Of a stretch of DNA of 64,000 nucleotides, positions 1,236 to 64,000 are shown piece after piece. Within the stretch, counting starts at the first letter, position 1. Every line of letters starts with the position of its first letter. A program made the position numbers and the translations under genes. The notes beneath the pieces were generated by a model, which was given only the letters and a program-made list of their open reading frames with translations, was not told the origin of the DNA and ran no database searches. Source of the stretch: Paramacrobiotus metropolitanus (lineage: Eukaryota; Tardigrada; Eutardigrada; Parachela; Macrobiotidae); assembly GCF_019649055.1 (NCBI RefSeq), contig NW_026570305.1:124001-188000 (forward strand). The letters run 5' to 3'.

Positions 1236-2260
1236 ATGACGGCGGCATGTTATAAACGGAATTTTCCCAACACCATCCGCCAAATACTCTGTGAGCTGGT
1301 CCGTGGAAAGAAGCTGACTGTATTGGTGCTGATTGCGATAACTATGTTCTGCCTGTGTTTGCTCAACTTCCAAAGCGAGCCGACCGACCCGCTTCTCGCG
1401 GTAGCGCTCAGCCGATTCCGTGCCAACATCGCGGACGTCTTTGTGACTTCTTTGACATCTCCGGTAACGGTCGTCACGGCCTACTACCACATACCCTCCA
1501 AAAAGGACAAGACCACGTACATGCAGTACATGCGCAACTTCCTCCCGGAGATACCCTGCTTTCTGTACATTTTCACCGATGCCGAATCGGCGCCGGAATT
1601 GCTGACCTTGCGCGCACCCCATATGAACCGCACACGTCTGCTGATTATGGAGCTGCACGAATTCCGGGAGTACTCCAAGATGGATATGTGGCGGCGTATT
1701 AAGTGGACCGATCCGGAGACCTACCACACGCCCGAGCTGTACCTAGTGTGGAATGAGAAATGGCGGTTTGTCCAACGTGCGATACAAGAGAACGTCTTCC
1801 ACTCCGAGTATTTTCTGTGGTGCGATGTGGGATCGTTTCGAGCGCCGGAGCATCTTCCCGTCTTGCGCGCTTTTCCTGATCCAAAAGTAGTTGCGGCGCG
1901 ATTGACCGATCCGAAGAAAATCACGCTCTTGATGCTGCGTCCGTTTAATGCCAGGACGGAATACGTCGATGGTAACGGAGTACCGTCGGCGATGCTGCAG
2001 AAAGGGCAAAGAAATCACATCGGTGGCGGCATCGTTGCTGGCTCGAAACCGGCCTGGGAGATATGGATTTTGAGCATTATTATGCAATGCAGAGGTACTT
2101 TCTAGAGCATGGCCTGAACGCGGGAAAAGACCAGAATGTGATGAGTGCTGTAGCGCTGCGCTATCCGCAGAACGTCCAAATGATCACCCCGAAGCCGTAT
2201 TTCGACGGTCGAGGAGACGAGTGGTTTTATTTACAGTACTACTTTTCTGTGATTGATTGA
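1236..2260 (+). CDS. HtrL/YibB-family type II membrane glycosyltransferase-like protein, with a frameshift
   Basis: The first ATG (1236) opens a frame with a short basic tail and one membrane anchor at about residues 26-46 ('LTVLVLIAITMFCLCLL'). A lumenal HtrL/YibB-like domain follows: 'VTAYYHIPSKKDK' and 'CFLYIFTD', then 'VWNEKWRFVQRAI', 'FLWCDVGSFR' with the acidic D-x-G site, and 'GGGIVAGSKPAWEI'. The frame then diverges and stops at 2105. The family's next segment ('EHYYAMQRYFLEHGLNAGKD', then 'QNVM') continues in a different frame from about 2063 to a stop at 2260. No GT-AG intron fits at the switch near 2061-2066, so a short indel is most likely. It is either a young pseudogene or an assembly error. 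HtrL/YibB proteins have a GT-A-like fold and no proven substrate in animals. A GT92 identity is unlikely because GT92 motifs are absent. Confidence 0.75.
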
Positions 2261-2705
2261 CGACTGATGAATCAAAAGGTTAAAGGTTATCGTTTCGGCG
2301 CCATATAGTACTACCCGACCCGGACCATATTCGTACGTTTCAGCGGCCAGCATATTGTCATTCATTAACGACACTACCGCCAAATCCGTTGCCGCCCCTT
2401 ACCCTCAATGTACACGATATTGGCCCGGTAAAAACTCGACGGCAAAAAAAAATCCTTCAAGTGTACTCTCAAGAAAGGTTGAATAGTGCATGATACTGTC
2501 AAAAAATGCTTGAAATAATTTAGCACTGAACTGTGTTTTGTTGAGTGGGATCGATGAATAAAACCACATTCCAGAGAATTCGTGAACTACAAATATATCA
2601 AATTAGGCGTAGCACTTGCGCAAACATAACCCGAATTCCCGTTGAATATATATATTCTTACACCGACGTCATCGGCAAAGTTTGCAACTTCAAGATATTT
2701 TCGAA

Positions 2706-5547
2706 TTAAGGTTTAACTGTAGTTGGGAATACGGCGATCAAAGCCTTCCGGCCTTCTGCCAAAATGAAATGCAGCATCTCCCAGTAAGTGGAATTCTTGG
2801 CCAACTGCACCGTATTTTTCTCATTTTCGTCGCAGCCGTGCCAATACGCATGCCATGCCGGTATTTCCTTGTAGCGTATAGGACCCTTGTAATCCCAGGA
2901 ATGGTTACCCATCTGGTAGTCCACAAAGAAGTTCTTCTGATAGTCCTTGTTTTTGTTATAAATCTCCCACGGAACATCCGCACTGTTGTACAGAACAGGA
3001 GGGTCACGATAGTCGTCGCGATAGCGGAGAAGGACGTCATGGGTATACGGGTGACCTTTGGGGCAAGCGATGAATCCGCTGTTCATGAAGTGGTCTTCGC
3101 GAGTCAGTAAGCACTGGTACTTCTTGTTTTTCCAGTCCCGCAACAGTTCTGCGAAAAAACGAGACCTTTGTATTCCATATTCAGGGAAACTTTGCAGTAA
3201 TATAAAACAATCCGCTTTAGTTTCGTAAAAGCAGCAAACCGCGTACGCGTAATTCATTGAATATTGGTCTAAACCTTTATTCGGCAATCGGCAGTAGCTT
3301 CCGTAAAAATAAAAATGCTTTTCGTGGTTTTTGAATTCAGACTAGCGTTCGTTTTGAACGTTAAAAAACTCAAATGATTTTTTTGTTTACTTTACAATGT
3401 ATATGATTATTTTTAATCGACTTGTTTGCGATAACGTCTTGTTTCTTACAGAGTAGAACAAACTACCGTACACTATAAGATAAACGGGCATGTTTCATAA
3501 GTGTTCTGTGTTTCAGTATCCGGGAAACAGCGTCAGGTACAGCCGTCCAAAATGTTCATAATCATAAAAAAATAATGTATTTTTATGAAAAATGTAACTG
3601 AACAACTCTAATTCAGGTCCTCTAATTCAGACAAAATTAAAAAGGTGATGTCTGTCTGTCCGTTACGGAAGTAAGAAATGACGTCATACAAGGAAGTAAT
3701 GTCGTCATATAAGGAAGTAAGTAAAATGATGTCATATAAGGAAGTCGGAAGTTGCGTCATATAAGGAAGTAAAAATGATTTCCACAGAAAGGTCACATCA
3801 AACCAAAAAGGAGCAATAGTCACCTTAAAATTCGTGATCTCCCGCATACACTTTCTTATTAGTCCCGCTACCTGCCCTTTTGAAAAGTTGGGCATGAGTC
3901 TGGCAGTGGATATATTATTGCCGAAAAAACATCGTAGGTCCTGTTTAGCTTTGACCCAGAAAAATCTAGGTTTACCTGCTCCTCTATTCCTATGTTCGGC
4001 GTACGGGACAAAGCTGCCAAGAGTAATATAATAAATTACAGCAGCTTGAGTTGGCGACCCAAGCAGTAAGTTTTAACGCATTTTTATACTTACAGTAGCA
4101 TTACAACGCAATTTTTTGCTATTGTGTGCACACAATGAGTGTGGCGGCACTACAAGCGCAGAATCGCTTAGACCAAAGGGAAGCGTAGTACAAAAAGTCT
4201 CTGCGCCCCATTCTGAACAATTTTTGAATAACAGTTTCTAAAATCAATAACAGTTCGGAATTACATATTTCAGAAAATTCTAAACTTTCACCAAACTAAA
4301 AGAATAATTATTTTCAAAAAAAAGCTGTGAAGTGACTTTTTGTGAAATGAATGCGCATCTCATTTAGAATAAATAGAAGTAATTTCCGTTGGGGAGAAAC
4401 TGCATTTTCACTCTGGTAAAAAAGTTAGGTCACTGTTTTTATGGTGACAGGAGCAGCGTGTTGAAAATGTCAGGTCGGCAGCTTTTTTCTTTAAAGAGGG
4501 GGGTCATTATTACTGGTCACATGAGTATGTCGAAATGTGTTCGAAATTTGCACAAATGAAAGGGTTTCGTTTTGCTTGAGCATGCACTAGTAAGAAATTA
4601 CGGTTTTTCCTTGAAAAATTAAGTTTTGAGATTAAAGTATGTATGATCACTAGGAATCATTTCTGAAGTTAGAAACTTTATAAATGTTTTGACACTATGA
4701 GAATACTTTTATTAAAAGACGGAACTTTTTCACGGATAACGGAAAAGGATAATAAAATCAGTTTAAACACAATGGTTAAGCGACTAAGCTGCGCTCCGGT
4801 CTGCCAATGCACGCCAAAGTGCATTTTCCTAGTAAAAAAATAATGTATTTTTATGAAAAATGTAACTGAACAACTTACAGCATTTCCCAACTTACCCACC
4901 ATCTTGGGCAAATGGAATACGTCACTATCCTGCACGATGCCGCCGTACTGATACGCCACACTGTATTTGGTGACATCCGCTTCGTGTTTGTAGAACGTAA
5001 TGCGCCGGCCACTGAGATGGAAGCGCTGTCTCGTGTACACCAGCTGTATGAGTGACCAGTCCGTAATCATATCACAACGGCCGAACGGCCAGTAATCGGG
5101 GTAATTGGTATGGATGTAAATCTTGGACGGTTTGACGTACAGCATAATCGATAATATGCTAATGCAGTCGATCCAACAGAAACTGTGACTGTCACCATGG
5201 GGCAGGCCAAAATAGAAGCGAACCAGATGTACTGGTAAGAAAGTGTCATTTTGCGGAAGAACCACGTCGTTAATAATGTTGGGCAGAGGATTAACGATGA
5301 GAGGCTCGGTTAATGGATACTCTTCCACATCTTGGAAGGCCACGTCGACGGCATATGCCGGGTACACCAGGGAATTAGAAATTCCGTCCTTCAGCGATGT
5401 GTTTGCGACCAGTGTCCATCGATTATTCGGATTGGTCAGGTATAGTACGGTTTCACACAGAATGAACACAGCAGTGAGTGCTGCGGTTATTTTGATGAAA
5501 TGACCGATCCAGTTGCTAGACTGCATATTGGCTGTCTGCTTTAGCAT
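2706..5547 (-). CDS. GT32-like (DXD sugar-binding) Golgi glycosyltransferase, two exons
   Basis: Exon 1 is 5547-4896 and exon 2 is 3148-2706. The donor GTAAGT follows 'ATGGTGG' and the acceptor is TTTTTTCGCAG; both are phase 1 and join cleanly to give 364 residues. The protein starts with a short tail and a membrane anchor at about residues 17-38 ('IKITAALTAVFILCETVLYL'). The catalytic core shows 'ADVTKYSVAYQYGG' followed by 'DSD', the Gly_transf_sug layout in which DXD binds the metal and nucleotide sugar. After the splice come 'EDHFMNSGFIACPKGHPY' and 'WHAYWHGC', which match the N-x-G-F and distal His regions of GT32 enzymes such as alpha-1,4-GlcNAc and alpha-1,4-Gal transferases. The donor sugar cannot be told. 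The 1.75-kb intron holds repeats listed separately. The 5' flank is a duplicated segment shared with the left edge of the window. Confidence 0.85.
3565..3607. repeat. Exact 43-bp direct repeat, copy 1 (copy 2 at 4833-4875)
   Basis: The 43 bases from 'taaaaaaataatg' to 'ctgaacaact' recur without a mismatch at 4833-4875. Both copies lie in the single intron of the GT32-like gene. Copy 2 is 20 bases inside the intron from the donor. The 1.2 kb between them may be an insertion flanked by a duplication, or the repeat may result from a recent copying event. Confidence 0.9.
3664..3772. repeat. Short minisatellite, unit about 'gtcatataaggaagt'
   Basis: Four imperfect copies of 'gtcata(t/c)aaggaagt' are spaced by 4-13 bases, with related 'ggaagt' fragments on either side. 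The array lies in the GT32-like gene's intron and does not touch the splice signals. Confidence 0.85.
4833..4875. repeat. Exact 43-bp direct repeat, copy 2
   Basis: Identical to 3565-3607. It begins 20 bases downstream of the GT32-like exon 1 donor (minus strand) and so occupies the 5' end of the intron. Confidence 0.9.
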
Positions 5548-7560: not shown

Positions 7561-7796
7561 CATGGCTGATGAACGAACAAAGGACATACGGTCGCGACCG
7601 TATTTGCCGGTACAGTAATCGCGAAAAATTTGCCCATGCGAAAAATTTGCCGGTACAGTAATCATGTCGCGTTTTTGTGGATACGTACACATATTGGTGT
7701 AAATAACCAAGTCTACTTTTCGTTTATTAAAATGTCGCCCAGTTACAATTGGAGGAATATTTGTTAGCTTACATTAAAGAAGTATTTTTTTGTCAG

Positions 7797-9145
7797 AATA
7801 TGCTTCGCAATACAGAATTGTTTACAGTGCCTTAAACGACAGCGGACATTGCTTGAAACAGCTCGACATCAGCTGCTCGCATGCCGTTTTAACCCAACAA
7901 GTTCAAGTGGCAGGCAGCCAATTTACCGCCGACCTGTTATTGCGCATGGCTGACCTTTGCAGCTCTTTCAGCAAACAACTAATGCCCCTGGAAATAAAAC
8001 CTAAATATTTCTTGACGGCGTGTGCCATGATTAAGAACGAAATGAAAGTACTGTTGGAATGGATCGAATTCCATCGCATCCAAGGCGTGGAACACTTCAT
8101 CTTCTTCGACGACGAGAGCAGTGATGATGTGTATCTTCTGCCAAGGTTATACGAATCACTGGGCTATCCAGATTTGGTGGAGATTATCCCGCAGAATTTT
8201 CGCCGTCGCAGCCGCCCCGGCGACCACTCCTACACCGACCACGACCAAGGTCAATGGCAGGCGTTGAACCACTGCAACAGTCGTATGCGCGGTGTCAGTG
8301 AGTGGTTACTGGTCAGCGATGTGGACGAGTTCATGTTCTCACCCCGGCATTACACTATCGCTGCCTTCCTCCGCAGCCAAGCCGACGACGTCAGTCAGTA
8401 TAGCGTAAAGGTCATTCGCTTTGGGTCCAATAAGGTGCAGCGAGAGAACCGCGTCCGCTTGTCACTGAATGCGTATAACAGCCGCGTCACTGTTGTGCAC
8501 GAGATCTTCAACGAAGACATACTGCTGACGTCACGAAATCCCAAGCGGGCACCGTTTCCTGATGTTGACCCAGATTTTCCACAGCGATTCGACGAGATTT
8601 GTGCTCCAACAGGGAAAGGTCAGGGGTGTGGGCATGCGGTGGGGAAATCGATCTGGCGAGCGGATCACTGTGGACTGGCGTCCGTGCATTCCTGCGGAGT
8701 GGATCCGCTAGAAGGCACAGCGTATCCCGCTTTGGACATTCTGCGAATTAATCACTATGCGTTCCGGTCGAAAGAGCATATGGATAACCAGCCCAAGCAC
8801 CAGATGGGAGCGATAAAAGGGTCAGCGTATGCAGCATTCGATTCCGTATGGTTTTCTCTCGTCGATGACAACTCAACCAAACCGTATCGGCAGGAACTAC
8901 TCAAAAGACTGAATGCCATACCCACAACTGCAGTGTATCACAGAGAAATGCTTCCCTTCGGGCGGAATGCTGATGTGGAAAAACGTTTTCTGCTTAATGT
9001 TGTTCTCATCAGAAATTCGATTCGTTGCGTGTACATTGCCACGGTCTATATCGTATGCAGTGTTGCATTTTTGTGGTTCTTGTCCAAGCTAAAGAAGAAA
9101 TGTCTATACTACTCTAGGAAATTCTCTATTTTTTGCTGCGGATAG
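7797..9145 (+). CDS. GT92-family glycosyltransferase, main exon
   Basis: The exon is preceded by a strong acceptor (TATTTTTTTGTCAG, ending 7796), so an upstream exon probably supplies the start; the first in-frame ATG is at 7946. GT92 (DUF23) landmarks are all present: 'CAMIKNEMKVLLEWIEFHR', 'FFDDESSDD', 'GQWQALNHCNSRM', the metal site 'SDVDEFMFSP', 'TSRNPKRAPFPD', a Cys/His segment 'CGHAVGKSIW' and 'LRINHYAFRSKEHM'. A C-terminal membrane segment follows ('YIATVYIVCSVAFLWFL') with a short Lys/Cys-rich tail. GT92 enzymes characterised in nematodes and birds are galactosyltransferases acting on N-glycan fucose or galactose; the substrate here is unknown. It is very close to the 17679 gene and to the pseudogene at 26053-27094. 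An ATTAAA at about 9281 could be the poly(A) signal. Confidence 0.88.
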
Positions 9146-9760: not shown

Positions 9761-10990
9761 TTACTCCCGTTGAGCTAGCTTAAAAGCAAAGAACACATCC
9801 TCGTTGTCAACCATGTCATTAAACCATGTCATTAAACGTTCCAAGAACGGAGACCGCGTTTCCCCGTTGTATCTCAATACTGATTTTCTGGCGCAAAAAC
9901 TCTCCTGACCGAGGATTACCCGTACAATCGCAAATCTTTCGCGACAGCTCCTTGAAGAATTTCTTTGTGAGCGGTCCAAATGTGCCCGTGGTTTCGATAG
10001 CGATCGGCTGTACTACATATCGGTCTGCAAGTCCATCGTACTTTCCCAGCTTATGGTTTTCGCGTGCTTCCGCTGCACTTCCCGGCACCCGTGACGTCCG
10101 GGCGATGTACGTTTGAGCGAACGTGTCTGCCACTGTCACATCCCATACTAACGGCTTCCCATTTTTCCAAGGGAAAGCGGTAACTCCATCTGGTCCTTTT
10201 CCATCTCCTCTGTCCAGTCCCAGCGGCTCGAGGGACGATGGTATTCGTGCAGAGTTGAAGGCTCGCTTCGTCACATCATTCAACACGGCGTGAACGCCAT
10301 GTCGTCCTTTCGCTAACTTAAACACCAAGCCATGGTGTCCCAGGCTGTCCACTACGTTACCGCAACGGCATATGTGCTGTTGGCAGACTGGGGCTCCCAA
10401 CCGTCGCGCAACGGCTATGCGTAAGTGGGCCTCCTCCAATAGGTTTCCGAAGAGTGATACTGGCAAAGCTGACAACCAGGCGCGCGACTCCGATGAGGAT
10501 GCAGCCAACAGGCGGGCAGAGGTAATTACGTCGGCATTCTCCATCATGCGGGATGCTGTCTGGGTGTGTTGTGGTGTAGTCCAAGCGGACTGGAACCTGC
10601 GACTTTCTGTGCGTGGGGGTTCGGTAGAGAAGCGGGATGTCCATATGTCTGTCAGGTGGTTACACCGGTCTCTGATGGCTTCGTTGCGGGTGACATTACA
10701 CACCATGTCGACAGCACCGTGGGCTGATGAGGTGTAGGCAGCTAATGCCACTTCCGTTGCGCTGATTAGTCCCAAGCCTCCGAATTTCGTGGGTAGCGAT
10801 GCTTGGTTCCATACTGTGTCTGAAATTGCTACATTGGTCAGCTGTTCCGCTTTAGATCGGATGACATCGTCGAATTTCCGTAATTCTTCGGGATACTGCC
10901 AGCAGGGAGAAGTTCTAAGAACATATAACAATTTCGGCAGCGACAAACAATTCTTTAACAGATCAGATCCTTGTCTTGACCTATTTACGT
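9761..10990 (-). mobile_element. 5'-truncated retroelement: reverse transcriptase C-terminal region
   Basis: The minus-strand frame encodes the part of a retroelement polyprotein that follows the polymerase core. It reads 'LPKLLYVLRTSPCW', 'NQASLPTKFGGLGL', a zinc-finger-like Cys/His stretch 'CQQHICRCG' then 'LGHHGL', then 'GPDGVTAFPWKNGKPLVWDV' with the D...D-x-T pattern of a PD-(D/E)XK-like fold. It ends with 'LRQKISIEIQRGNAVSVLGT'. No polymerase YxDD core is present, so this is the 3' end of a larger element. A 13-bp tandem duplication ('catgtcattaaac' twice, at about 9812-9837) shifts the frame, so the original C-terminus ('NEDVFFAFKLAQRE', ending 9761) is now out of frame. Four related pieces occur elsewhere in the window. 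Confidence 0.8.
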
Positions 10991-11231
10991 ATCACGCTAG
11001 CTATCCATCAGCCAACTGTCTAATGCTCACAACCCCATTGATATTACTTTCAGTCGAAATTTTCCTCCGACCTGATTGCTTGACTAATTGCTCGATGTTT
11101 TGCACACCGCACCTAAGGCAATAGCATATCAATCAAGTACTCAGTGACCTTCAGCGAAAAAAACTTCTGATCCCCAAACCCACATCCGATTATCTCAAGC
11201 AAATTTAACGGTCATTTCTTACACCCCAAAA

Positions 11232-12395
11232 ATGACTGGACGTGGCAACCGAGGACGGCAGCCAGCGAAGAGCGCGCCCGGGACATCCAACAGAGCGAAA
11301 CGGACTACCGCCGCCAGTAAGCCCCCCACCACAGCGAGCGACGCGGAAGCTCCGGAACCGACGGTGCAATCGCTCGCGCAGCAGCAGAAAAAGCATCAGG
11401 AACAGCTGGATAAAATTCTCGCCGCAATGGAGCGCCTAGCACCACCACCCCCACAGCCGCCACAGGCAGCACCACCAGCACCACCAGCACCGGAACCTGC
11501 TCTGCCGCCATCAGCACCGGAGAAAGTTCCAGATCCATCGGCACCTCGTACACTGTCTCCATCCTCCAACCTGCAGATCCAGATTGGTGACGACTTCGAA
11601 AGAATCGTGCACCAGACTGATCACATCGGACACTCCACTAACCGCAAGCGTAAACGCAGTCCAAAAAAAGGTAAGCGTAGCAGCTCGCAATCATCTGTTA
11701 GCAGTGAATTATCGGACACACTACCAGCACGTCTGCCGGCCGGCGAGCGCCTTGGGAGACGTCCAGACGTTTTCAGCCGACTGGGGCCTCTGCGGGGAAC
11801 TGCCGCCGGAAACGCAGCCATTCCCCCCTTTCCGCACCATTTTCCGTCGCAAGACAAAAAGCTCGTGAAGAAGCTGCTCGACCACACTGAATACATTGAT
11901 CTGGACTTACTCCTGCTGAAGAACCGCGTCGAAAAACCAAAGAAACTGGATTACAAAATGCCAATGGTGTTCGATAACGGAAAGGTCACCATTAAGCCGG
12001 AGGACGGGAAAGTCCGGATTACCTGTTTCACATCATGGATGCGCGCTTTCGGCGTGTTTGCCAGCTACCGCTCTCACATTGCACCGGAACTAAGCACCCG
12101 CTTCTACAAGTACATGGACATAATTGCATCGTACGTCGAGCGTGGGGTTCCGACCGCCAACTGGCTCGAGTACGATCGACAGTTCCGCGCGCACATGACT
12201 GGACATCCGTACGATTTCGACCAGTGGACCCATCAACACGAAGATACGTACATTGAATGCATCCAGAACGCATCGCACGCCGAACGCGAACCGTCCCCGC
12301 GCCCGGAAAAGCCGAAGCAGAAAGACGATCGCTGCCGAAACTGCGGAGGGACAGACCATTACATCAGCAGCTGCCCCGCACCGCGGAAAGGTTAA
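11232..12395 (+). CDS. Gag-like protein of the DIRS-like element, interrupted by an in-frame stop
   Basis: It starts at an ATG in a basic N-terminus, followed by a Gln-rich helix and a Pro/Ala-rich linker (residues about 65-105) and a Lys/Arg/Ser-rich patch ('NRKRKRSPKKGKRSSS'). A capsid-like helical part follows ('SWMRAFGVFASYRSHIAPEL', 'RGVPTANWLEYDRQFR'). A CCHC knuckle ('CRNCGGTDHYISSC') lies just before the TAA at 12393. The same frame continues past the stop with a second Cys/His module ('CRNYNYGNCPTPC', 'HACASCDDRKHRTATC') up to a TAA at 12566. The first stop therefore looks like a nonsense mutation that cuts off the second finger. Confidence 0.75.
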   Translation: MTGRGNRGRQPAKSAPGTSNRAKRTTAASKPPTTASDAEAPEPTVQSLAQQQKKHQEQLDKILAAMERLAPPPPQPPQAAPPAPPAPEPALPPSAPEKVPDPSAPRTLSPSSNLQIQIGDDFERIVHQTDHIGHSTNRKRKRSPKKGKRSSSQSSVSSELSDTLPARLPAGERLGRRPDVFSRLGPLRGTAAGNAAIPPFPHHFPSQDKKLVKKLLDHTEYIDLDLLLLKNRVEKPKKLDYKMPMVFDNGKVTIKPEDGKVRITCFTSWMRAFGVFASYRSHIAPELSTRFYKYMDIIASYVERGVPTANWLEYDRQFRAHMTGHPYDFDQWTHQHEDTYIECIQNASHAEREPSPRPEKPKQKDDRCRNCGGTDHYISSCPAPRKG

Positions 12396-13047
12396 CCGGT
12401 ATACGGGCAGCCCTTTCGTGCCGCTCCCGCCGCAGACGGGGAAATCTGCCGTAACTATAATTACGGAAACTGCCCAACACCGTGCCGCGCCGGGAGAGTC
12501 CACGCCTGCGCCAGCTGTGATGACCGCAAGCATCGGACGGCCACCTGCCCGAAGCTGGATAAATAAAGAAGTAACAGTGCTGGCAAAGGCAACCACACCG
12601 CTACAAATTAGCGCCTTTGCCAGACTGCTTGCTCAACATCCTTACTCCACATTAACGTCATTTATATCCACCACACTTACAAACGGTTGCACTATCTACT
12701 ACAGCGGTCCCCAGAAAGCACGCTCCACACCAAACGCCGTCTCAACACGCAAGCACCACGCTGCGGTTACGCGTACCATACGGAAAGAGGTCGATGCTGG
12801 CCATACCATCGGTCCTTTTCCTGACCCACCCTTGCCGCACTTTGTCTGCAACGCCCTCGACGCACGGCCAAAGAAAGACGGTAGCATTCGAACCATCCAG
12901 GATTTATCCCAGCCGCACGACGACAGTGTAAACGATTACATTGACGTCACGCAACTTCCTCTGGTATACTGCACCGTTGACCATGCAGTATCCATCCTAA
13001 CGGAACTCGGCAGAGGCGCACTCATGGCCAAAATGGATGTAAAATGA
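12253..13047 (+). CDS. Partial reverse transcriptase of the DIRS-like element
   Basis: This frame is offset from gag and overlaps its end. The recognisable domain begins around 12600. It shows 'TNGCTIYYSGPQKA', 'VTRTIRKEVDAGHTIGPFPD', 'CNALDARPKKDGSIRTIQDL' and 'GRGALMAKMDVK', which are the RT N-terminal region and the start of motif A in DIRS/Ngaro elements. It then ends at a TGA, so the YxDD motif and everything beyond are absent and the product could not be an active polymerase. The first 100 or so residues are the gag zinc-knuckle region read in another frame and are probably not translated. Confidence 0.7.
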   Translation: MNASRTHRTPNANRPRARKSRSRKTIAAETAEGQTITSAAAPHRGKVNRYTGSPFVPLPPQTGKSAVTIITETAQHRAAPGESTPAPAVMTASIGRPPARSWINKEVTVLAKATTPLQISAFARLLAQHPYSTLTSFISTTLTNGCTIYYSGPQKARSTPNAVSTRKHHAAVTRTIRKEVDAGHTIGPFPDPPLPHFVCNALDARPKKDGSIRTIQDLSQPHDDSVNDYIDVTQLPLVYCTVDHAVSILTELGRGALMAKMDVK

Positions 13048-23706: not shown

Positions 23707-23742
23707 GTTCGGCGATGCTATACCGTTGCTACTGCCACGCAC

Positions 23743-50600: not shown

Positions 50601-51399
50601 ACCGCCATTTTGTTGGGCCACCCGGTAGCTGCAAACCGACGTGACGGCTGAAATCAAGTATCGCGTGAGCGCCTGCACACGGGTAAGATGCAGCAGGGAA
50701 AGTGATAAAATTTACTCAAGCGATGGGAAAGAGTTGTCGCTTGCCTCGTACACAGAACGTACTACCGAACATTCTTGGGGGCGAACAACCACTCGCGAAC
50801 CACCGTGTTAGAGGGCCAGTTTTCTGGAGTAAACATAACGATTATCCAGTCCTTAATCTTTATTACTCGTTACCAATAATCCAACACTATAAGTCTGTAC
50901 ATTTATAAATCTGTAACCGTACGAGCACAGAAGTTAAAACTAATAGAAGATTTGTTACTCTACCATGTACAGTTTTGTTTAGCATGCACCACAGATCACA
51001 ATGTGCAAGTGATACATGTCGTGCAACTGTAAAATTAATTCACAAAAATCTGACTTAGGATTATTATATTTTCGACGTTTTTCACTTGGGATAAGTTAGG
51101 TTGTAACTTAATTAAAGAATGCATACTTGTACGTACTACCAGTTATTTCATTTTCTTCTACATACCTGAAGCCAACTAAATTATAACACAGACATGGTTT
51201 GTACTGATTACTTACCTAAAGCGGCGTAATAAACTGTTGCCGGTTTGCTGTCCGGCATAGGCCTGAATCTTACGTCCCTTTCCGGTGTAGATAATTCGAC
51301 ATCTTCATCAGATTCAACGGCTCCATTATCGGTATCTGCAAGCGAACGAACGTGCATTGTAAACTGCCGTTTCGCGACAACAAACTTGGACATCGTCAT
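47654..51399 (-). CDS. Small coiled-coil protein gene with a transposon-filled intron, two exons
   Basis: Exons are 51399-51216 and 47952-47654. The donor GTAAGT after 'GCTTTAG' and the acceptor TTGCAG before 'CCAACC' are both phase 1 and give 160 residues. The N-terminal exon is acidic ('AVESDEDVELSTPERDV') after a basic start. The C-terminal exon is a long charged coiled coil ('QRRRLQESKEARVAQEKFQR', 'EQAEAQREQADKDRALKL'). I do not recognise a named family. Similar coils end many Myb/SANT-like proteins, and two Myb-like ORFs lie just upstream, so a link is possible. The 3.26-kb intron contains an entire inverted-repeat transposon and its flanking repeats. An extra upstream exon cannot be excluded. 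Confidence 0.7.
48304..48437. repeat. Exact tandem duplication of a 67-bp unit (left outer arm)
   Basis: The unit from 'cgaggcaagcgacagctc' to 'tgctgcatcttacc' occurs twice in a row without a mismatch. The second copy plus the next 24 bases ('cgtgtgcaggcgctcacggg') pair with 50658-50751. The arm lies outside the TA-flanked transposon and begins right after a GTAC. Confidence 0.92.
49287..50060 (-). CDS. ORF inside the transposon: coiled coil plus ORF1-like region
   Basis: The frame opens at an ATG (50060) and runs for 257 residues. It has a heptad stretch ('FVEILNEKVEQLTALNKTLT'), a Ser/Pro linker, a Lys-rich middle ('SYASVIKKAPKVVRGTRTG') and 'ADFCVRGIPRVEDSKF', followed by 'VKDYNAFIAKQL'. 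The 'V-x-G-I-P' turn after a basic linker is reminiscent of RNA-binding ORF1 proteins of non-LTR elements. Immediately downstream another frame continues with 'CTFLLVEIDDLPFARIG' and 'MAKKILEPEIWPTNVFVRV', so the original protein was longer and a frameshift or intron lies near 49290. I do not recognise a transposase. Confidence 0.5.
   Translation of the reverse strand: MSFPRSLYDLNGSNVVWTKFIPQFKTLVSFVEILNEKVEQLTALNKTLTEQLAQHADVSSSSVAHHSPDAPPSLVNVESIDKTVEELCERVFLVECAVGHQWNGMDDYMKEDPDYVKTVDEHFGVTNYSEDISGLKQAGKVWSPKRIVPAKFGKGQLAQSQSKNPTTSTNHPTLAMKSQSYASVIKKAPKVVRGTRTGTSEGPSRELTETLQAKHQPHADFCVRGIPRVEDSKFDSVKDYNAFIAKQLEDVEFLQDL
50100..50177. repeat. Minisatellite 'ggcaaagtttgattta'
   Basis: Three to four imperfect copies of 'aaggcaaagtttgattta' with 'tagaa' spacers, inside the TA-flanked transposon and just upstream of its ORF. 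Confidence 0.85.
50658..50751. repeat. Right outer inverted arm (partner of 48371-48462)
   Basis: Reverse complement of the left outer arm with only a few differences ('gagttgtcgc' here pairs with 'gcgacagctc'). It ends at 'cctcGTAC', mirroring the 'GTACgagg' on the left. Only one copy of the 67-bp unit is present here, against two on the left. Confidence 0.9.
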
Positions 51400-52542: not shown

Positions 52543-53229
52543 TCAAAGCGGCCGTGGATCACAAGAAACGCGGAGGCGAAGCCGCAGCGGTTTCTTGTAC
52601 ACAATAACCAGGGTTACAAGTACTACTCTAGGTTTACACTCAAATGCGGTATCAAAAGGTTCAACCGAGCCACTCGAGTGAGAGCGCGATGCTGATGGTG
52701 CCTCTAGCGGCAGTCCATTTCCGCTCCCGCGAGCAGGTTGCACTGCCGTCAAATCGCCACTGTCCGTCCCGCTTTCGCGCTCCCGCAGTTCCATCCCTTC
52801 ATTTCTGTCCTTGGCCGCCGCCTGTGCACGCAGGAGGGCCTTCCACTGGATAATCTGGTGCACCAGTTGGTCCTTCTCCGTCCAGCTGGCCGGGGTTTTC
52901 TCTGCTGGCGGACCGTGGGGATGCGCGCGGTGGAAGGCTTTGATGGAACGACTGACCATCTCTTGCAGGGTATGGGCTGGCGTTTTCAGGGATCCGGTGT
53001 AGTTCATCGGCACACCGTTGGCGCGACACATGCCCACAATTTTCCTCCACAAGGAACCCGATTCCTTGGTATTTTCCTTGCACTGCCAGGGGTTCACTTT
53101 CACAATGATCCGCAGCTTTGCCAAAGACAGCTGTTCATTTTCAGCCTTCGTTCGACGAGTACGATTCACACCGTTATCCATGCTACATCCACGAGGGTTA
53201 TCACACGAAAGGCCAGCAGCAGCGGACAT
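52543..53229 (-). CDS. Myb/SANT-like domain ORF, copy 1
   Basis: An ATG at 53229 opens a 228-residue frame. The core has 'KAENEQLSLAKLRIIVKVNP', then 'SGSLWRKIVGMCRANGV', 'TPAHTLQEMVSRSIKAFHRA' and 'EKDQLVHQIIQWKALL'. The order (L-x-x-x-V-x-x-N-P, a W helix, then a Q-rich third helix and a basic end) resembles trihelix or Myb/SANT-like DNA-binding domains common in transposon-derived host genes. It is clearly paralogous to 54327-54764. The last 30 residues are hydrophobic and basic and may be read-through of a missed splice site. I cannot name a function; DNA binding is inferred. Confidence 0.55.
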   Translation of the reverse strand: MSAAAGLSCDNPRGCSMDNGVNRTRRTKAENEQLSLAKLRIIVKVNPWQCKENTKESGSLWRKIVGMCRANGVPMNYTGSLKTPAHTLQEMVSRSIKAFHRAHPHGPPAEKTPASWTEKDQLVHQIIQWKALLRAQAAAKDRNEGMELRERESGTDSGDLTAVQPARGSGNGLPLEAPSASRSHSSGSVEPFDTAFECKPRVVLVTLVIVYKKPLRLRLRVSCDPRPL

Positions 53230-54326
53230 TTTTTAAAGAAAATTGACAAAGTACTGTACGAGTACTGGAGAAGTTGGTTTCGAAAATTAATATTCTACCC
53301 TGCACTGCAGTAATACGATAGGGATTTGCAGGCGCATTTGATCCATAATCAGCAAGTAGCCTGTTGATCGAAAAGCTTCTCTCTACTCGTGAGATACTGT
53401 ACTTCAGCTGTTCTGCGATGGTTCTGTTCCAGACTGCATAAAGTTGCGAAGCGCATGCTCATGAGCGCGTCAGTGTGATGTTGCCCCTTGGCCTGGGGCC
53501 TTAGCACGGCACAGAGACATGACAGAACAAAAGATCGAGCAAATGACCATTGACCAGACACTGCATGATGGACAGCTTCGAGGCAGCGTTCTTGTTCGAG
53601 GCGAAATATTCACAATGAAAAATGTTCATGAACAAATTTTATTTTTATTAAGAGTTTATAATATGTGCACAAACTCTTATTAGCTGTGTTACTACCCTAG
53701 CTGTTATTAGTTGTTGTTTCACAACTTTGTTTACCTTCATCTTGACTGTCCACGGTTTTGTTCGGATCTGCGAGAATACTGCCGCCGGAAGTATTTGGAT
53801 TACGGGTGCTGGTACCTGACGGTAAAAAATCAACCCGGTTTTGCTGGATTTGTTATTGCAAATTTATTGTTACACATACTGAGCACTGCTATCCCGGTTC
53901 TGTCTGGGGATAAGTTTTTATCGTTTCTGCATACCAGTTTTAATTAATCTTAGGATAAATTACGATTGCACGAGTAATTTAATACGGTACTGGATGTACA
54001 ATGTACTGGATAGCGTGTCATGCAGCTCACACATAAAATTTCCCGGCATGTATTGTATCTGTACACGCAACAATGCTTATAAGTTGTAATGGAGAGGATC
54101 GATGCCCTCGCGTATACTAACTAATTTGTATATTTTTCATATACGTATAAGTACTGTATTTGCGTATTTTTTCTTTGGTCATATTGGGTACCAAAACTGC
54201 TGCCCGATGAATTCAAAGCCCGGGCCCTGGCGCAGTATGTTCGGTCACTTTTTTGGCCGTTGAGTGATGACTTTGGCCATTCTGAACATATTGACGGTGT
54301 GTGGAATAAGGGCTTTTCTGTACCCC
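53230..54326. other. Spacer between the two Myb-like ORFs
   Basis: No supported gene. A plus-strand frame at 53711-53947 is open but unrecognised. The spacer is presumably the promoter region of the 53229 ORF. Confidence 0.4.
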
Positions 54327-54764
54327 TCATTGATCTACTCTCTGCAACCCGTTTGCCATACCTTCTTCTCGCTCTTTGTAAACGGTTCCTTTTTGGGGGA
54401 CACGCTTCTGCGGAGCGTCTGCTTTGTACTTCATTAACTGGCGCACCAGCCACCATTTTTCGGGCAAACTTTTCTCCTCTTCTCCCGCCGAATGGTAATT
54501 CGGATACTTCGTTTTGAACTGCTTCATGAGGCTGAACACCAACTCCTGCAGGGAATGGGCGGCTTTTTTATCGCGCTCTTTTGCTGCCTCTTCTTGATCA
54601 AATGTAGTGGGCATCTTCATATCCGACGCAAACAGGACATTATTTTCGCGGCACATATTCACAGTTTTTTTCCACAACGCACCGGCTTCCGCTGTTTGTG
54701 GCTTGACTTCAAATGGGTTTACTTCAACAAGGATCCGTAGTTTTTGAAGGGTCAACTGCTCCAT
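54327..54764 (-). CDS. Myb/SANT-like domain ORF, copy 2
   Basis: This 145-residue frame repeats the copy 1 layout: 'MEQLTLQKLRILVEVNPFEV', 'AGALWKKTVNMCRENNV', 'AHSLQELVFSLMKQFKTKYP' and 'LPEKWWLVRQLMKYKA'. The same frame extends upstream of the ATG through 'NPRSAPITKSE', which also aligns with copy 1, so the true start is probably further up or in another exon. The two copies lie head to tail 1.1 kb apart and have diverged considerably while keeping open frames. That suggests selection and not recent decay. Confidence 0.55.
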   Translation of the reverse strand: MEQLTLQKLRILVEVNPFEVKPQTAEAGALWKKTVNMCRENNVLFASDMKMPTTFDQEEAAKERDKKAAHSLQELVFSLMKQFKTKYPNYHSAGEEEKSLPEKWWLVRQLMKYKADAPQKRVPQKGTVYKEREEGMANGLQRVDQ

Positions 54765-55739
54765 TTCCGACTTTGTTATGGGTGCGCTGCGAGGATTTTC
54801 GTTAACGGCGGCAGTAGACGTACCTTCAATACATTTCGCATAAAAACGGGGAAGAGTGGGATTTTTGCACTACGTACATAGGTACATCGTAAACTAGTAT
54901 ATTATTGGCGACACTTAAGATTCCATTAATCGAAGCACAAGTGCCGCAATTATTTTTACGAAATCGCAGTGTTGGGCAAGTAAAAAATCATTCTAATTTG
55001 TATAAACATGTTTTACCAGCATGAGGGTTATCCGCAGGAATCTCCATGATAAGAGCGTAAGGCCAATTGCAAATAACCAGTATGATGCAGATGTTAGCTC
55101 CGCGGATAATTCGTATGTTCTGTATTTTGAAAAGTTTCAGTACTTCTACATTAAAATTTTGTAACTGTGCATGACTGCATGTTGCAGAATGCACAATAAT
55201 CCTTTAGCGTTTATAGCTTTGGCATGCGCGGTTTTCTCAGCATCGTGACTCTGAAAACGTTTGCCCCTTTCTGTGTCATTTTAAAGAACGGTTAGCAGGA
55301 TCCAAATACCAAATGAAAGGCAATTTGAACCAGGATACCGAGCATCGCAGACGACGGTGAGCGGGGGAAAATAGGTAGGTTTGTTTCAGGCAGGTTATCA
55401 TTTGAATATTGTTTGGTTTGTAAAGCTGAATTGGAATGGTGCGGTCACTTGCCAGAGAGATGTCGCAAACTCATTAATTTACGGCTTTGAAATCAGCAGC
55501 GCTCAGGTCAGGTGTCAACCACTTTGTCATAAAAATCCCCTTCTGCCACGAAGCGTCATGGGCAGGGTTTAGGACGTTAGTTTTACTAACCCCGATACGA
55601 CGACCGCTTCGTACATTGCCAGGACATTGCAGCAAGGTTGCAGCCATGGCAAAGAGAAACGAAAGGTTATCGTTATTAATTTCGACAAAGCATATTACGC
55701 GCTAAAGCAGAGGCTGTGCGTTGACTATTATTAAGGTAT

Positions 55740-57194: not shown

Positions 57195-60100
57195 CTAGGT
57201 AAAAAAGGCTAGATATCGAGTATCTTTAGTGTGGCACACAGCCTGGCCCAAAATTCTACGAAACAACGCAATGTCCCTTCTTGTAGCTGATAGAGTAGCG
57301 TATTTCATGCTGACTTACTTCGCGCAAAATCACCCAGTTCGGACTTTCTTTGGTAATTCGTATCCTTATGGCCGAAATCAATTCGTTGGACCTTAGTGAT
57401 CCCTGGGAGGTACCGTGATGAAAGCGTCCCACTTCTTTCCAGTTAGTCAGCGAATTATCGATGGTGACCTCTACCACTGCGTCGCGCAGCTGATCAGCCG
57501 GATGGTCCGCGTCCCCCGATTTAAATACAAATGATGAAACGTTGATGCGAGCGAGGAATTCAATAGTCAACGTATCAGATGCCCGAGGCGTGAGTGCCCA
57601 AAAAAAAGTCTTTCCCCGGTAAGCGTTTTCAAGGGTATGCGGCTGGTATATTGTCAGTGTCGACCAGATGCGCCTAGCAGGCGGATTGTCTTTATGTGGC
57701 ACACACGAGCTGACATTACCGAAGTCGCCTTCCTGCACAAAGAGTGTTGGGCGTTAATACAGTTCTACGAATGCTCAAAGCGTCTCAAATTCAAAGTAAT
57801 GCTGGCTTCATTGCACCGAATTCATTTCTAAAAACCACAGTAGGTTCCGTACAGAGTAGCTGTGAAAGGACTGTGGAAGAAGGATGCCGAGGAACATGTA
57901 CTTGCATGTTTCTGGCTCTGGCCTTCGCTACATGATGTTTTACGCTGTTTTCCTTACTGATGACAGCAGCGCGATCGCCTCCCAACCTTTTTCCTTATGA
58001 CTTATGAGTAACTCCAGCTTTGGGCAACCGCAGCAAAAGCACTGAGTCATGGTTAAGGCATGTCTATGTTACCTGCTAGCATGATATTATTATGTTGCCT
58101 ATATTGCATAGCGTCTTAATGGCATTGAATGCAGGACGCGTCTTACTAACATTACTAACAATAACAAAAGTGGCTGTCCGCGAACAGACTCAAGAGGTAA
58201 AATCAATTCTATGTTCATTCTACTCTGCGCATCAGTGTTTTTGTGCCGATGGAAAGCCGATACTGTGGCTGCTTTAAAATTTAAATTAGTAGTATTAAGT
58301 AATAAGTAGGATCTAGGCAAAGTTTGCCAGTGCATCGTATTGCCGCACCTGCCATAGCTGCACTTTTCCATCAAAGGATGACTCTCGTCCGATATGTTGG
58401 AATAAAGCAGGCCGAAATTTTTTTATCGCTTTCTTCATCGCTTTGGGGCAGTACTCTGTTTCAGTTAGCTCTTGCAAGCAAACTTTAACAAAGATGTAAT
58501 TACTAAGCAGCCAATCAACGGGCTTAGCGTCGTAAAATAGAATAATAAACTGAACGAACGTCGGCAGCTCTTTGGAATGGAACAGTTTTCCTGAAAAATG
58601 CAAAGACTATGCAGAGAAACTGTGGTAATACATAGGTCAAGGAACTAAGCCCATTTGTGTGTATGAAATTAACAGCTATAATGGCCAGGATTTTTACCGA
58701 TGAAGCCTAAACTAGCAAAATCCGCCAAGAGAAAGTCATCGCCTGCTACCAGAGAACGTTTTATCGCCTGGATGTAATCCGGTTTTGTGATCACGTCGTC
58801 CTCTAGCTAAAGACACAGGAAAACAGGCTACCGACGTTGTAGTTTGCAAAACATTCTATTACCTATGTGGCCACGTCCCATTTACTTGTAATAATTTCAG
58901 GTACTTTACAATTGCTATAAAAATTAAAAAAGAAGACTATAGATTTGCAATTGGCAATCGAAACCCTCCTGCCAACACTGGAATTACTACCGAAAAATCC
59001 ATCTTTTAACCGAACAGATTTATTAAGAAGTGCTTTTGCTATAAATCTCGTTTTCTTAGTACTCAATTTGTGGCTACATGTGATACCATTAAAGGTCGGT
59101 TTACATTCATTTGCGATAAAAAGTTAGGGATCCCCAAAAATTAGGTATTTGGCAGATCGTGCTGATTGACAGAAGTGCCACTAACCGGTAGATAATACTT
59201 TCCTTTCCGTTGAGCATACGCCATTAGATAAGCAAAATCCAACGCCTGTTTCGCTCGCCATCTGGGATACGTATAGATAATAGATATGCAGTACTGTACA
59301 CAGCATAGTGAATGCGAGCGTTACATGGCACCTTAGTATGATCATGAGGCTGTTTTCATACATTAGATGGAATCTTTTACTATGGAGTAAATTATGTTAG
59401 CGGTTTGCCATTCTACCTGAAACGGTTCGGAGAATCACCTAGCGTAGGCGGAATTTTGACGAGGTCAGGGTAGTAGTTGAGTGAAGGTGCCAGAATTTCC
59501 AAGACGCTTGCCTCAATGTAGGACAAGAACGTCGTACGGATGTCGTTAATGAATGCATCCGCAGCAGGCAGATCGACGGTGTCGGCTACCATCACAACGA
59601 TTACGATATCGCTTTCGTCGCTGGAATTTAAGTTATACAAGAGCGACTCCAGCGCGTAGTTAATGTAGCTCTGCGTGGCTCTGCGGATTGTTGGTACACC
59701 AATTACCAGTGAAACTGTCAAGTGATATGAGATAAAATTTCAGTGTTATTACAGTACTCGTATTTATCGTTAGCAGTAAGGTTGCCGGTTACAAGTGAGG
59801 AGATTTCAAGCTCACCTCCTTCTCGATTACCGCCGATGTGTATTCGAGGAGCAAGACTATTTATTTTGCCGGCAAGATGCGGTAAGCGATGTGTTAAAAT
59901 GGGAAATTCAAACAGATGTTCACCACCTGAACGATTATTTGCGCATTCATCAGAACACACCACTCCCTGATTGCCGACGTTCGGCTGCTGTTCGCACGTA
60001 TGCAGCAGACTGGACTGGTTATCTGCAAGCAACTTTTCTGTTTGAACCGTAAGTAATACAGTAATATTTCCAATAAAAGTGGTCCGTGCTGCGTTGCATA

Positions 60101-60819: not shown

Positions 60820-60885
60820 GCCGCTCGTTGCATCGTGATGGCCGTTCAGGCAAAGATAGGCCGGAAACGTGCGTAGGTCAGTTAA
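60820..60885. promoter_or_regulatory. Conserved upstream block of MGAT4 copy B
   Basis: Partner of 37712-37777, located 128 bases from the start codon. It keeps 'catcgtgatggccgttcagg' and 'aaagataggccggaaacg'. Confidence 0.4.
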
Positions 60886-60954
60886 CTTTAATTATGTATT
60901 ATAATGTTATGCTACTTATTACAGGTACTTTAAATAAAAAAGGTATCTAACGTG

Positions 60955-61400: not shown

Positions 61401-62518
61401 CTTCCTTTCCTTCCTTTTCTTGGGATCGGGGTCTCGAATGGTCTTCAGCAGTTCAGCGGTATCTTGCTTACGTCTTGGCGGCTTTACCACTTAGCTCGGG
61501 GCACATTTGCGTTTACTGCTGTAATAATGCCTAACGTAATTGCGAAATAAACCTTTCGGGGAAGTAGAATCCGGAATTTTGCATCGATTCACAACTCGAG
61601 ACTAAAAATGATTTCGTTGTCAGTGCAGCGGCAGCCTGATGCTCGAGATATGATGGAGAATCTGTGAACGTGAAAAGGAAGCGGCGACACCGATGTACTG
61701 GATTTGCTGGCATGAAACGGAGACCGTTCCCGGTTTGTGATCCCTGAAAAGACCGCCAACATTATATTGCATTTTGAAACAATATTTTGAATAAGTTCTT
61801 TCTTTTAATTATACTTCGCTTTTGCTAACAAAGGATACTGAATCGCATTATTCTGTGTATTCTGTAGTATATGTGCGAATGACCTTTGGTCATTTCCTTT
61901 AATATAAGGGATCGTTCAGAAACTGTAAAGGTGGCTTCCACGTTTTTATTGTTATTCTTACTATTATTTCGAACTAGATTGTACAGTATATAAAACGTTT
62001 CACGGGTCCGTTTAACACACCTGCTTTCGAGCTGCGCGCTTTCCCCAGCTACGCTTTTCGTCACGTGGCTACTTTCTCCACTTGTGCCATATATATCTGT
62101 GGAAGCCACTGTTTTAGTCAACACATTAACAACTTGTAAGTTGCCAGCTATAAGTTATAAGTTGGTAATATACGAATTCCGAATTCGTATGCTTCGGAAT
62201 TCTGAAACCTTTGCTAAAGGCAAAACTTGCATATAAATAGCTATCAAGTCAAACGTCTGACCTTGCAACAATACGCAAAAAGAAGCAAGAAAGTGCAAGA
62301 CAGAGAAAGCGGAGTTGTACAAAAGCTAAATAAAAAAAACAAATAAAAAAATCAGCACAGAAGGCGGAAGCAGAAAGATGTCGTTAAAACTATAAAATAC
62401 TTGTCAAAAGCAGAACAGCGTTTCTAACAAAAATAGTTATACGCAAATCTTTGGGCGTTGGATCACAGTATCATCTGAAACTTTGAATAGAAAAGGAGAA
62501 AGAGCCTGGCAGTAGCAC
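61401..62518. other. Intergenic, no gene seen
   Basis: AT-rich sequence with short ORFs only. It may include the 3' UTR, or a last exon, of the GT92 gene to its right. Confidence 0.4.
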
Positions 62519-64000
62519 TCACTTCACTCCGCCGGTGGAGTTGAAAATACTGCGATACACCGTATTGACCGTATCTGTCAACCGTTGGAGCCGCGCTAAT
62601 CCGAAGAAGCGCTCCATATCCACATCGACCAATGGCGCACCGGCCCCAATCAGGCCCTCACTGAAATGCAGCACCAGCGTCTCCTCGGTGTTGGCACCCA
62701 CCAATAGACGCGTGTTGGGGCGTGACTTATGGATGAAGTGCACGCCCGCTTCCAGCACGCAGCGCGGCCGGCAGATGTACTTGGTGCGTTCGTTGATGTT
62801 CCAGATCTTGGAGTCGCGGTGTAAATGGCGTACGAGGTGCTGGCTGATGTCGCCGGGTGGGGCGGTGGCGCTGAGGGAGGTTTTGACGGCGGCGTGCCGG
62901 ACAGTGACGCAGTCGCGGGATCCTTTCTGGACGATAGCGTCCAGACCGGTTCCGTGTTGAGAAATGATGTATTCATCAAAGTCCACTGGAAGAATTAAAA
63001 ATATTATGTATTTTATTGTTATTTACAAATATTATTTAATTTTTATTGCACTAACTTTCGTACCCACGAAATAGTAGCGCTTATCTTTATTTTAAAAACC
63101 GATTCCGCAATTTAAAAAAAAATTTTTAGTTCGTCACATTTGACTAATATGTACATATTATTTCAGCCCAGATCCCAGCTAAATTGCAGTAACTGTGTTA
63201 TAATTAGTCATTAATCGCCCTGACGCATTACAGTAACATTTATTGTTGTCTGCGTAGAAGTATGTGGAGGTAATTAAAAATTTTATTAAAGGTACTCGCA
63301 TATAGCGCCGGAAGATGCTAAAGATCGGCAAGCACAAATTCTTACATTCAGCAGTATTTCACATTCGAAGACGAAGTATGGGCGCTTATAACACGCCGCG
63401 TGCAGCAAAATTAATGTGGTTACCTTTTGTGCTCAAGCGAAAAAAAAATTTTCATCTTTATTCAAAGATAAAAAATTGAATATGTACAAACTATATAAGC
63501 GCATCTCGGATTTTTACATACCAACAACAACGTAATCGAAATATCGGTAAGCCTTCATCATACACTCGTTGACGGCCGCCAGCTGACCGTTATAATGCAT
63601 CTTCCGCTCAATCTCCACCGGTATCGTCCAGTTCCCCACCTCCACCAACTCTCGATCTTCATAATACCGCAACACCCTCAGCACTTCCGCCGTCACATTA
63701 GAAAAAAACGGACTCGTATAATACACCGGGATAAAAAACTTGGACACCCCCATAATCCGGTAATACTCCACCCACTCCACAATACGTTCCGGACGGACAT
63801 CCTGCCCGAAAATAACCGGACCACACATCGCCATGCTCAGCGCCGGCGGATCCACGGCGGGAGGCGGGGCCACGTCGAGCTCCACGGATCCGGAGACACT
63901 CCGCATCTGACACTGTAGGGTCATCCGAATGGTCCGCGTAAAATCGGCGTACTGCCGGACATCGCACGTCAGAGTGGCGGCGGTGTACGGCTCACCGTGG
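62519..64000 (-). CDS. GT92-family glycosyltransferase, two 3' exons, 5' end outside the window
   Basis: Exons are 64000-63522 (continuing beyond the window) and 62985-62519. The donor G|GTATGT and the acceptor TTCCAG|TG are both phase 1 and rebuild 'VVVVDFDEYI', the GT92 DXD metal site, across the junction. Upstream are 'MCGPVIFGQDVRPERIVEW' and 'YYRIMGVSKFFIPVYY', and then 'NGQLAAVNECMMKAYRYFDY'. Downstream are 'ICRPRCVLEAGVHFIHK' and 'LVLHFSEG'. This belongs to a different GT92 branch from the 7797/17679 pair, more like the general animal DUF23 form. The frame ends at a TGA that overlaps a good donor (GTGAGT), so another exon downstream is possible. Confidence 0.88.

Follow-up and report, generated by a model that had tools for sequence, protein, structure and literature searches.

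To our knowledge, the glycosylation genes of animals are usually thought to be scattered, with only single-family tandem clusters. The question raised by the locus described here is why glycosyltransferase (GT) genes of several families lie close together on an animal chromosome, and whether this gathering exceeds chance. The locus is found on contig C85 (NW_026570305.1; 634,842 bases) of the tardigrade Paramacrobiotus metropolitanus; the window, i.e., the whole 64,000-nucleotide stretch that was analysed, corresponds to C85:124,001-188,000, and the genome searched comprised 169,799,020 bases in 533 contigs. According to excerpts of the genome report (PMC8277472), 24,903 genes are predicted in this species, about nine per 64 kilobases (kb), and the genomic content of guanine plus cytosine (GC) is 43.46%; in the window, the GC fraction of 2 kb blocks ranged from 0.38 to 0.53. 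We report that the mixed GT cluster is real and far beyond chance, and we evaluate how it could have arisen and been kept.

A Mixed Glycosyltransferase Cluster beyond Chance

A sequence-only reading of the window had placed in it eleven GT loci of six families (HtrL/YibB, GT32, GT92, MGAT4/GT54, GT7 and GT10) and had considered them most of the recognisable host genes. Both statements were borne out by Pfam scans of the open frames (Table 1): the window contains 81 frames of at least 110 amino acids, 46 of which were covered by the scan, and all the matches above the curated cut-off belonged to GT families. If HtrL/YibB, bacterial and without known function according to Pfam, is set aside, the window count falls to ten loci in five families. 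The families had also been called unrelated, which is correct at the level of Pfam and CAZy families, but several of them have the GT-A fold in common. Searches of the window with Rfam, at gathering scores, and for transfer RNA genes gave no match.

Table 1. Glycosyltransferase loci of the window, in window coordinates unless preceded by the contig name; E, expect value of the profile match.
Locus	Position	Strand	Profile match (E)	Other features
Second GT32-type gene, 3' end	1-121 (C85:123002-124121, mostly left of the window)	+		
HtrL/YibB-family gene	1236-2254 (Pfam-scanned frame 1224-2105)	+	PF09612 (2.3e-10); TIGR02192 (1.5e-13)	
GT32-type gene	2709-5547	-		two coding blocks, 5547 to ~4850 (DSD motif) and 3341-2709
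GT92 gene a	7778-9145	+	PF01697 (6.8e-21)	single open frame, DVDEF present
GT92 gene b	17592-18890	+	PF01697 (5.9e-22)	single open frame, DVDEF present
GT92 gene c	21363-23769	-	PF01697 (7.3e-14; 22711-23769)	two exons, DxD replaced
GT92 copy d	25915-26883	-	PF01697 (5.3e-19)	inverted, 3'-truncated copy of gene a
MGAT4/GT54 gene 1	33565-36347	-	PF04666 (3.8e-24); PF23524, MGAT4A_C (1.3e-31)	LEDD exon 35318-35479
GT7 (beta4-galactosyltransferase-like)	42541-44563	+	PF13733, Glyco_transf_7N (1e-13); PF02709, 7C (6.2e-11)	three exons
GT10 alpha1,3-fucosyltransferase-like	45103-46976	+	PF17039 (2e-26); PF00852 (7.6e-28)	two exons
MGAT4/GT54 gene 2	57256-59739	-	PF23524 (3.4e-32)	LEDD exon 58693-58821
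GT92 gene e	62519-64000, on to C85:188413	-	PF01697 (4e-6; C-terminal exon)	intron-bearing

Genome-wide, after merging exon matches into loci, we counted 24 GT92, 31 GT10, 4 MGAT4, 24 GT7, 6 YibB, 25 GT32, 32 GT31, 1 GT14 and 17 GT11 loci, i.e., 164 loci in nine families, 114 of which belong to the six families of the window. The GT32 set was composed of 22 strong protein matches, two weak ones (C4, C63) and one locus from Pfam alone (C234:84893); protein matches covering only residues ~190-289, most of them resembling intron read-through, were dropped, as were three weak matches (C29:140k, C9:1495k and the second piece of C37:339k). The GT7 set includes seven PF02709 matches (on C3, C5, C6 and C112) that were missed by the GT7 protein and may be other transferases. 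A broken YibB fragment (C85:120.5-121.1k) was left out of the counts, and a genome search with PF02485 gave 2 weak matches.

A genome-wide permutation of GT density, proposed together with the sequence-only reading, was carried out by moving the runs of each family, kept as rigid blocks, to random places on one genome-length circle, which preserves tandem duplication within families. For the six families, 95 cross-family pairs within 64 kb were observed against a null mean of 3.8, all six families occurred together in a 64 kb stretch, against a null maximum of 4, and 12 genes fell in 64 kb, against a null maximum of 9; none of 20,000 permutations reached any of these values. This test is biased, because the window itself had chosen the families. 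With all nine families the pairs were 114 (mean 8.6) and seven families shared a stretch of 64 kb, the null maximum being 4, again with no equal among 10,000 permutations. Unlike enzyme genes are gathered here beyond chance in both tests, as in what is called a gene bundle.

Free of the bias due to the choice of families are the GT11 gene found in the flank of the window and the mixed places outside the locus. Excluding C85 and contig C72, which is described below, unlike GT families lay within 10 kb of each other at five places, against 0.72 expected (5 of 10,000 permutations): GT31-GT11 on C5, GT92-GT31 on C12, GT32-GT92 on C37, GT92-GT31 on C67 and GT11-GT92 on C197. Within 25 kb the places were 5 (1.6 expected; 220 of 10,000), and within 64 kb they were 10 (3.6 expected; 19 of 10,000). 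Likely haplotig contigs (C294, C176, C164 and C411) were dropped in this permutation and in that of the merged contigs only, and the clustering result was unchanged. As a control we used trypsin genes, for which at least 112 loci were obtained (an undercount, 150 of 449 first-look candidates having been scored and 150 of 162 matches used): trypsin-GT pairs numbered 3 at up to 10 kb, where chance predicts 2.1, and 8 at up to 64 kb, where it predicts 13.8, indicating no attraction, and none of the 150 of 162 matches listed was on C85.

Extent of the Locus

In all, seven families and 18 GT loci are represented on C85; a GT10 stands at 15 kb, and the other 17 loci fall between 98.6 and 230.4 kb. 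The seventh family is GT11, whose gene was detected in a scan of the flank and lies outside the window together with a second GT32 gene, among others. On the left the GT locus is preceded by AAA/kinase-like, protein-kinase and HSP70 frames (91.6-96.0 kb); on the right of the window six 7tm_1 receptor frames (C85:191,671-228,564) enclose a YibB and are closely followed by a GT92. An astacin-like frame (below the cut-off) and a glycine-rich frame were also observed amid these receptor frames.

Contig C72 contains a GT32, two YibB and a GT7 gene within 22 kb (C72:279,979-302,006). That this is an independent second cluster was rejected on the basis of an inverted match of ~85 kb between C85:8,042-92,818 and C72:89,371 down to base 1, mostly 93-98% identical in the pieces sampled; the exceptions were one piece at 87% and ~890 bases near C85:67-68 kb at 77-89%. 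The first 1500 bases of C85 had no match at the expected place, C72:95.5-98.5 kb. The two contigs are probably overlapping ends of unmerged haplotypes and chromosome neighbours; the match may instead be an inverted duplication. With the join, which is likely on these alignments, the region would probably hold ~22 GT loci over ~437 kb, a number that, in the permutation of the merged contigs, compares with 0.41 expected and a null maximum of 14 in 3,000. The GT10 at C72:82k was regarded as an allele and left out (95.9% over 1455 bases).

Near-identical GT10 copies were seen on other pairs of contigs (C40:37k/C164:233k, C14:574k/C176:13k and C82/C294; main pieces 85-99%), and these are likely uncollapsed haplotypes, which inflate gene-family counts in the assembly. 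Moreover, ~900 bases of the window (32274-33208), with no recognised gene, are 88-91% identical to C72:302.9-303.9 kb, at the edge of the GT cluster of that contig; this is perhaps a mobile element.

The HtrL/YibB and GT32 Genes

The YibB gene of the window changes frame near 2069, as observed by tblastn with three paralogues. It scored 41 bits against PF09612 (curated cut-off 24.1) and 51 bits against the NCBIfam equivalog, far under the cut-off of 264.9; judged by these profiles, it is a member of the family and not the bacterial equivalog. The predicted model was weak, with a mean predicted local distance difference test (pLDDT) of 51, and its fold matches, among the 50 listed, were mostly nucleotidyl-sugar or GT-A-type enzymes, with Z scores of only 5.2-7.1; we treat HtrL/YibB as a probable glycosyltransferase. 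A search by sequence for related solved structures gave nothing convincing. In a genome-contig database no relatives were retrieved with the tardigrade alignment as query, and 10 with E. coli htrL. The window protein was 20-29% identical to nine bacterial and viral-contig rows of one alignment, with no sign of recent transfer in that comparison. IMG/VR viral contigs encode YibB-like proteins, 23-30% identical, that have a tardigrade-like W-x-D-x-G stretch. Five of the six YibB loci found genome-wide belong to the C85/C72 locus, the remaining one being carried by a 33-kb contig.

The GT32-type gene of the window (frame 4678-5547, minus strand) scored 19.6 bits against PF04488 (Gly_transf_sug), under the curated cut-off of 23 bits; frame 2706-3341 on the same strand is its C-terminal exon. 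By protein search it belongs to 22 clearly similar loci, and paralogues with both coding blocks are found on C85, C72 and C37. The closest ones, C37:344753 (60%) and C37:373108 (57%), are above the PF04488 cut-off. On the basis of the DSD motif and of these above-cut-off paralogues we call the gene GT32-like. The second GT32 gene was 41% and 33% identical to the two exons of the first (blastp among C85 frames), and its first part was also recovered by the protein search of the genome.

The GT92 Genes

All five GT92 loci of the window matched PF01697 above the cut-off. The DxD-type motif is kept in a and b, as DVDEF, and in d, whereas the alignment showed that DVDEF is missing from gene c; gene e, whose N-terminal exon is at C85:187526-187834, has DFDEY in its translation. 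Gene c, the C-terminal exon of which was recognised in frame 21360-22022 (minus strand) with the family profile, is thus a GT92 by profile that may be inactive. Gene b shows, by eye, a hydrophobic N-terminal stretch. Copy d is a probable pseudogene: it matches gene a in inverted orientation (26052-27031 with 8828-7856, 88.7% of DNA identity), its matching ends ~100 residues before the ends of the paralogues, and its N-terminal part is in a different frame. A sequence search for related solved structures gave nothing convincing, and the AlphaFold model of GT92 had a pLDDT of 37. We take the C. elegans gene M03F8.4 to be GALT-1, a GT92 member. In that nematode the galactose-fucose (Gal-Fuc) modification of N-glycan cores requires M03F8.4, according to excerpts of PMC2798750.

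The MGAT4, GT7 and GT10 Genes

Besides the match listed in Table 1, MGAT4 gene 2 has PF04666 exons above the cut-off at C85:182349 and 183413. It arose as a segmental copy of gene 1, from which it is separated by 23.4 kb, with pieces of DNA 77-90% identical; the possibility that the copies had no metal motif was ruled out by the LEDD exon found in both. The ratio of nonsynonymous to synonymous substitution rates (dN/dS) between them was 0.18 and 0.20 in two exons, and 1.17, on 7 changes, in a third. The translation of the GT7 gene has DVD and GEDDD motifs. For the first exon of the GT10 gene, FUT9 was the sole solved chain matched at E ≤ 0.001 (E 2.4e-12).

How the Locus Was Built

Local copies on C85 are not limited to MGAT4 and GT92: YibB is present at 119, 120.5 and 125 kb, and GT7 at 99 and 167 kb (72%). 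Out of 13 dN/dS comparisons tried, 10 were computable and 3 were saturated; apart from the MGAT4 exon reported above, the values (nine) were 0.09-0.20, although a damaged copy enters four of them (GT92 copy d, the frameshifted YibB of the window or the YibB fragment) and several dS are above 1. On these values, several duplicate pairs look constrained.

The locus is not one tandem array. One-clade tests were run on GT92, GT32 and GT7 with the approximately unbiased (AU) test, and a single clade of local genes was rejected for GT92 (5 of 22 rows; p 1e-9) and for GT32 (3 of 22 rows; p 4e-4). The GT10 genes at 15 and 170 kb of C85 were not sisters in the tree. The trees omit, as short, the GT92 of C144, C197 and C85:187k and one piece of the GT10 at C85:15k. 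Since the local members belong to several lineages, either these lineages were gathered here or an old array exported copies, and the trees fit both. We also considered whether the GT32 beside GT92 at C37:39.7-44.2 kb could be a block copy of the window pair, and rejected it, because orientation and tree position differ.

As for other elements of the window, probable remains of retroelements were noted at 9819-13047 and 28247-29632. The frames in 11148-13047 are DIRS-like by eye, with a zinc knuckle below the cut-off, and a similar-looking frame occurs at C85:113772-114665. Two minus-strand frames (52543-53232 and 54327-54869) share, by eye, 'LRI.V.VNP' and have no Pfam match above the cut-off. 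A stretch of 382 bases (40827-41208) is self-inverted, i.e., palindromic, at 75% identity, and a 67-base unit that occurs twice in perfect tandem (48304-48439) has inverse copies, 95-98% identical, at 50657-50751.

Possible Function and Alternative Explanations

We suggest, with a probability of roughly 0.45, that a fast-evolving GT gene bundle for outer-chain glycan decoration, in which unlike GTs were locally duplicated and retained, has its core in the window. Growth of the bundle would follow a birth-and-death course, with segments duplicated locally and copies lost, and the unlike families would stay close through co-expression in cells decorating secreted or cuticle glycoproteins. MGAT4 adds branch N-acetylglucosamine (GlcNAc), members of GT7 and GT92 transfer sugars of the galactose type, and GT10 and GT11 add fucose (Fuc). 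Together with GT32, these branching, galactosyl-type and fucosyl-type enzymes would fit the stepwise building of outer chains on Golgi glycans. The benefit of linkage could be shared chromatin control or, alternatively, the co-inheritance of whole glycan haplotypes under pressure from glycan-binding microbes or lectins. Such a pressure from glycan-binding enemies may be suggested because in C. elegans, according to excerpts of the two reports, a DUF23 protein (PF01697, now GT92) is required for the adhesion of bacterial biofilms to the cuticle (PMC2727005) and the Gal-Fuc glycan confers sensitivity to a fungal galectin (PMC2798750). The bundle genes may plausibly be co-regulated. In two other tardigrades, excerpts of PMC12167791 describe complex N-glycans with an unusual Fuc-alpha1,3-GlcNAc end and without galactose, and report these Fuc-alpha1,3-GlcNAc glycans on some drying-induced proteins; the MGAT4 and GT10 part of the bundle fits these structures.

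On the other hand, several observations weigh against this suggestion. The galactosyl-type GT7/GT92 part clashes with the two known tardigrade N-glycomes, in which complex glycans carry no galactose (PMC12167791), a mismatch that may be explained if P. metropolitanus differs or if other glycans are meant. Broken copies are found in at least two of the eleven window loci, namely the frameshifted YibB and the truncated GT92, and a third locus, also a GT92, has no DxD; moreover, one MGAT4 exon has the high dN/dS given above. A single clade of local GT7 genes was not rejected (3 of 15 rows; AU test p 0.31), and a neutral history, with an old array shedding copies, predicts identical trees. GT31, the largest family counted, has no locus on C85 or C72; therefore the locus does not attract all GTs. 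As for the statistics, the null assumes uniform gene placement and was accompanied by one control family. Outside the locus the signal by pairs is weaker than by places at 10 kb (5 against 0.9; 136 of 10,000), at 64 kb it was 12 against 5.8 (695 of 10,000), and at 437 kb no excess was observed (17 places against 17.1).

The sequence-only reading had set selection for linkage against a chance gathering of genes in a region prone to duplication. The mixed clustering is confirmed and local duplication is clear in MGAT4, GT92, YibB and GT7, but the second alternative accounts for only part of the findings. If the region were simply repeat-rich and gathered any expanded family, one would understand these local copies, the six G-protein-coupled receptor frames with YibB and GT92 beside them, and the sub-threshold zinc-knuckle or reverse-transcriptase frames among the GT genes; however, in the 46 of 81 window frames scanned the matches above the cut-off are all GT, trypsin genes show no attraction and were not seen on the contig among the matches listed, GT31, another numerous family, is absent from it, and the GT92 and GT32 members derive from several old lineages rather than from one duplicated lineage. 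In addition, unlike GT families also adjoin elsewhere in the genome and trypsin genes do not adjoin GTs, which disfavours the chance part. We consider duplication-proneness alone unlikely. Much less probable still is an assembly artefact: uncollapsed haplotypes seem to be present, as in the match between C72 and C85 and in the GT10 copies of C40/C164 and C14/C176, 97-99% identical, but all the window loci are on a single contig of a long-read assembly, several GT genes bear introns, the flanks carry HSP70, kinase and receptor frames, and the result did not depend on the likely haplotigs. Contamination was ruled out by the animal-looking flanks and the introns.

A more serious competitor, possible though less well placed than the functional bundle, is a neutral old array, in which GT families were linked by chance in an ancestor and stayed together because tardigrade chromosomes keep linkage in spite of local shuffling; the neighbourhood would duplicate and send out copies, with linkage itself bringing no advantage. 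Local genes of several lineages with dispersed relatives, as found in the trees, are expected of such a source, local duplicates and broken copies are common, and a comparison of two tardigrades, in excerpts of PMC5531438, shows retained linkage together with a loss of gene order. The unlike GT neighbours at five other places, instead, are not accounted for by one old array, and trypsin genes, also numerous, have no such pattern with GTs. On the gene arrangement, selection for linkage appears slightly favoured over neutral persistence and somewhat favoured over chance. A bolder version of the functional bundle appears doubtful: the ~437 kb region would be a co-regulated animal glycan super-locus, encoding much of the outer-chain assembly line and holding all but one of the YibB loci found. 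It would be passed on in the form of glycan haplotypes and kept changing under pressure from glycan-binding microbes, with a logic akin to that of the core loci of bacterial lipopolysaccharide (LPS).

Significance and Comparison with Known Systems

If the functional bundle were confirmed, animal gene order could reflect a glycan pathway, and the mixed bundle would suggest partners for the orphan enzymes HtrL/YibB and GT92 and provide an entry point to the study of the odd tardigrade glycans with Fuc-alpha1,3-GlcNAc. Judged mostly from titles and the beginnings of abstracts, no published report of a mixed GT cluster in a tardigrade or another animal was found.

Single-family tandem GT clusters are known in vertebrates, such as FUT3-5-6 and UGT1. 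Clusters of UDP-glycosyltransferases are described for Hypsibius dujardini in excerpts of PMC5531438. The locus described here has in common with all of them the local duplication of GTs; however, each of these clusters consists of one family, whereas the tardigrade locus mixes seven. Closer in architecture is the oro bundle of sponges, which, according to excerpts of PMC12833800, also comprises unlike enzymes of common animal families over a large chromosomal stretch, interspersed with other genes; it differs in that oro is conserved among producers and five of its proteins were assayed, while the tardigrade locus is a candidate bundle described from its sequence, and its members are all glycosyltransferases or probable ones. 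Finally, a mixed GT neighbourhood with an HtrL/YibB member is also found in bacterial loci for the core of LPS or lipooligosaccharide: the htrL gene of E. coli K-12 is flanked by kbl and rfaD, where the waa genes for the LPS core begin, and the Acinetobacter outer-core locus OCL5 carries an HtrL/YibB gene, as stated in excerpts of PMC4172580. These bacterial loci are compact, whereas the genes of the tardigrade locus are separated by kilobases and occupy both strands, and introns are present in many of them.

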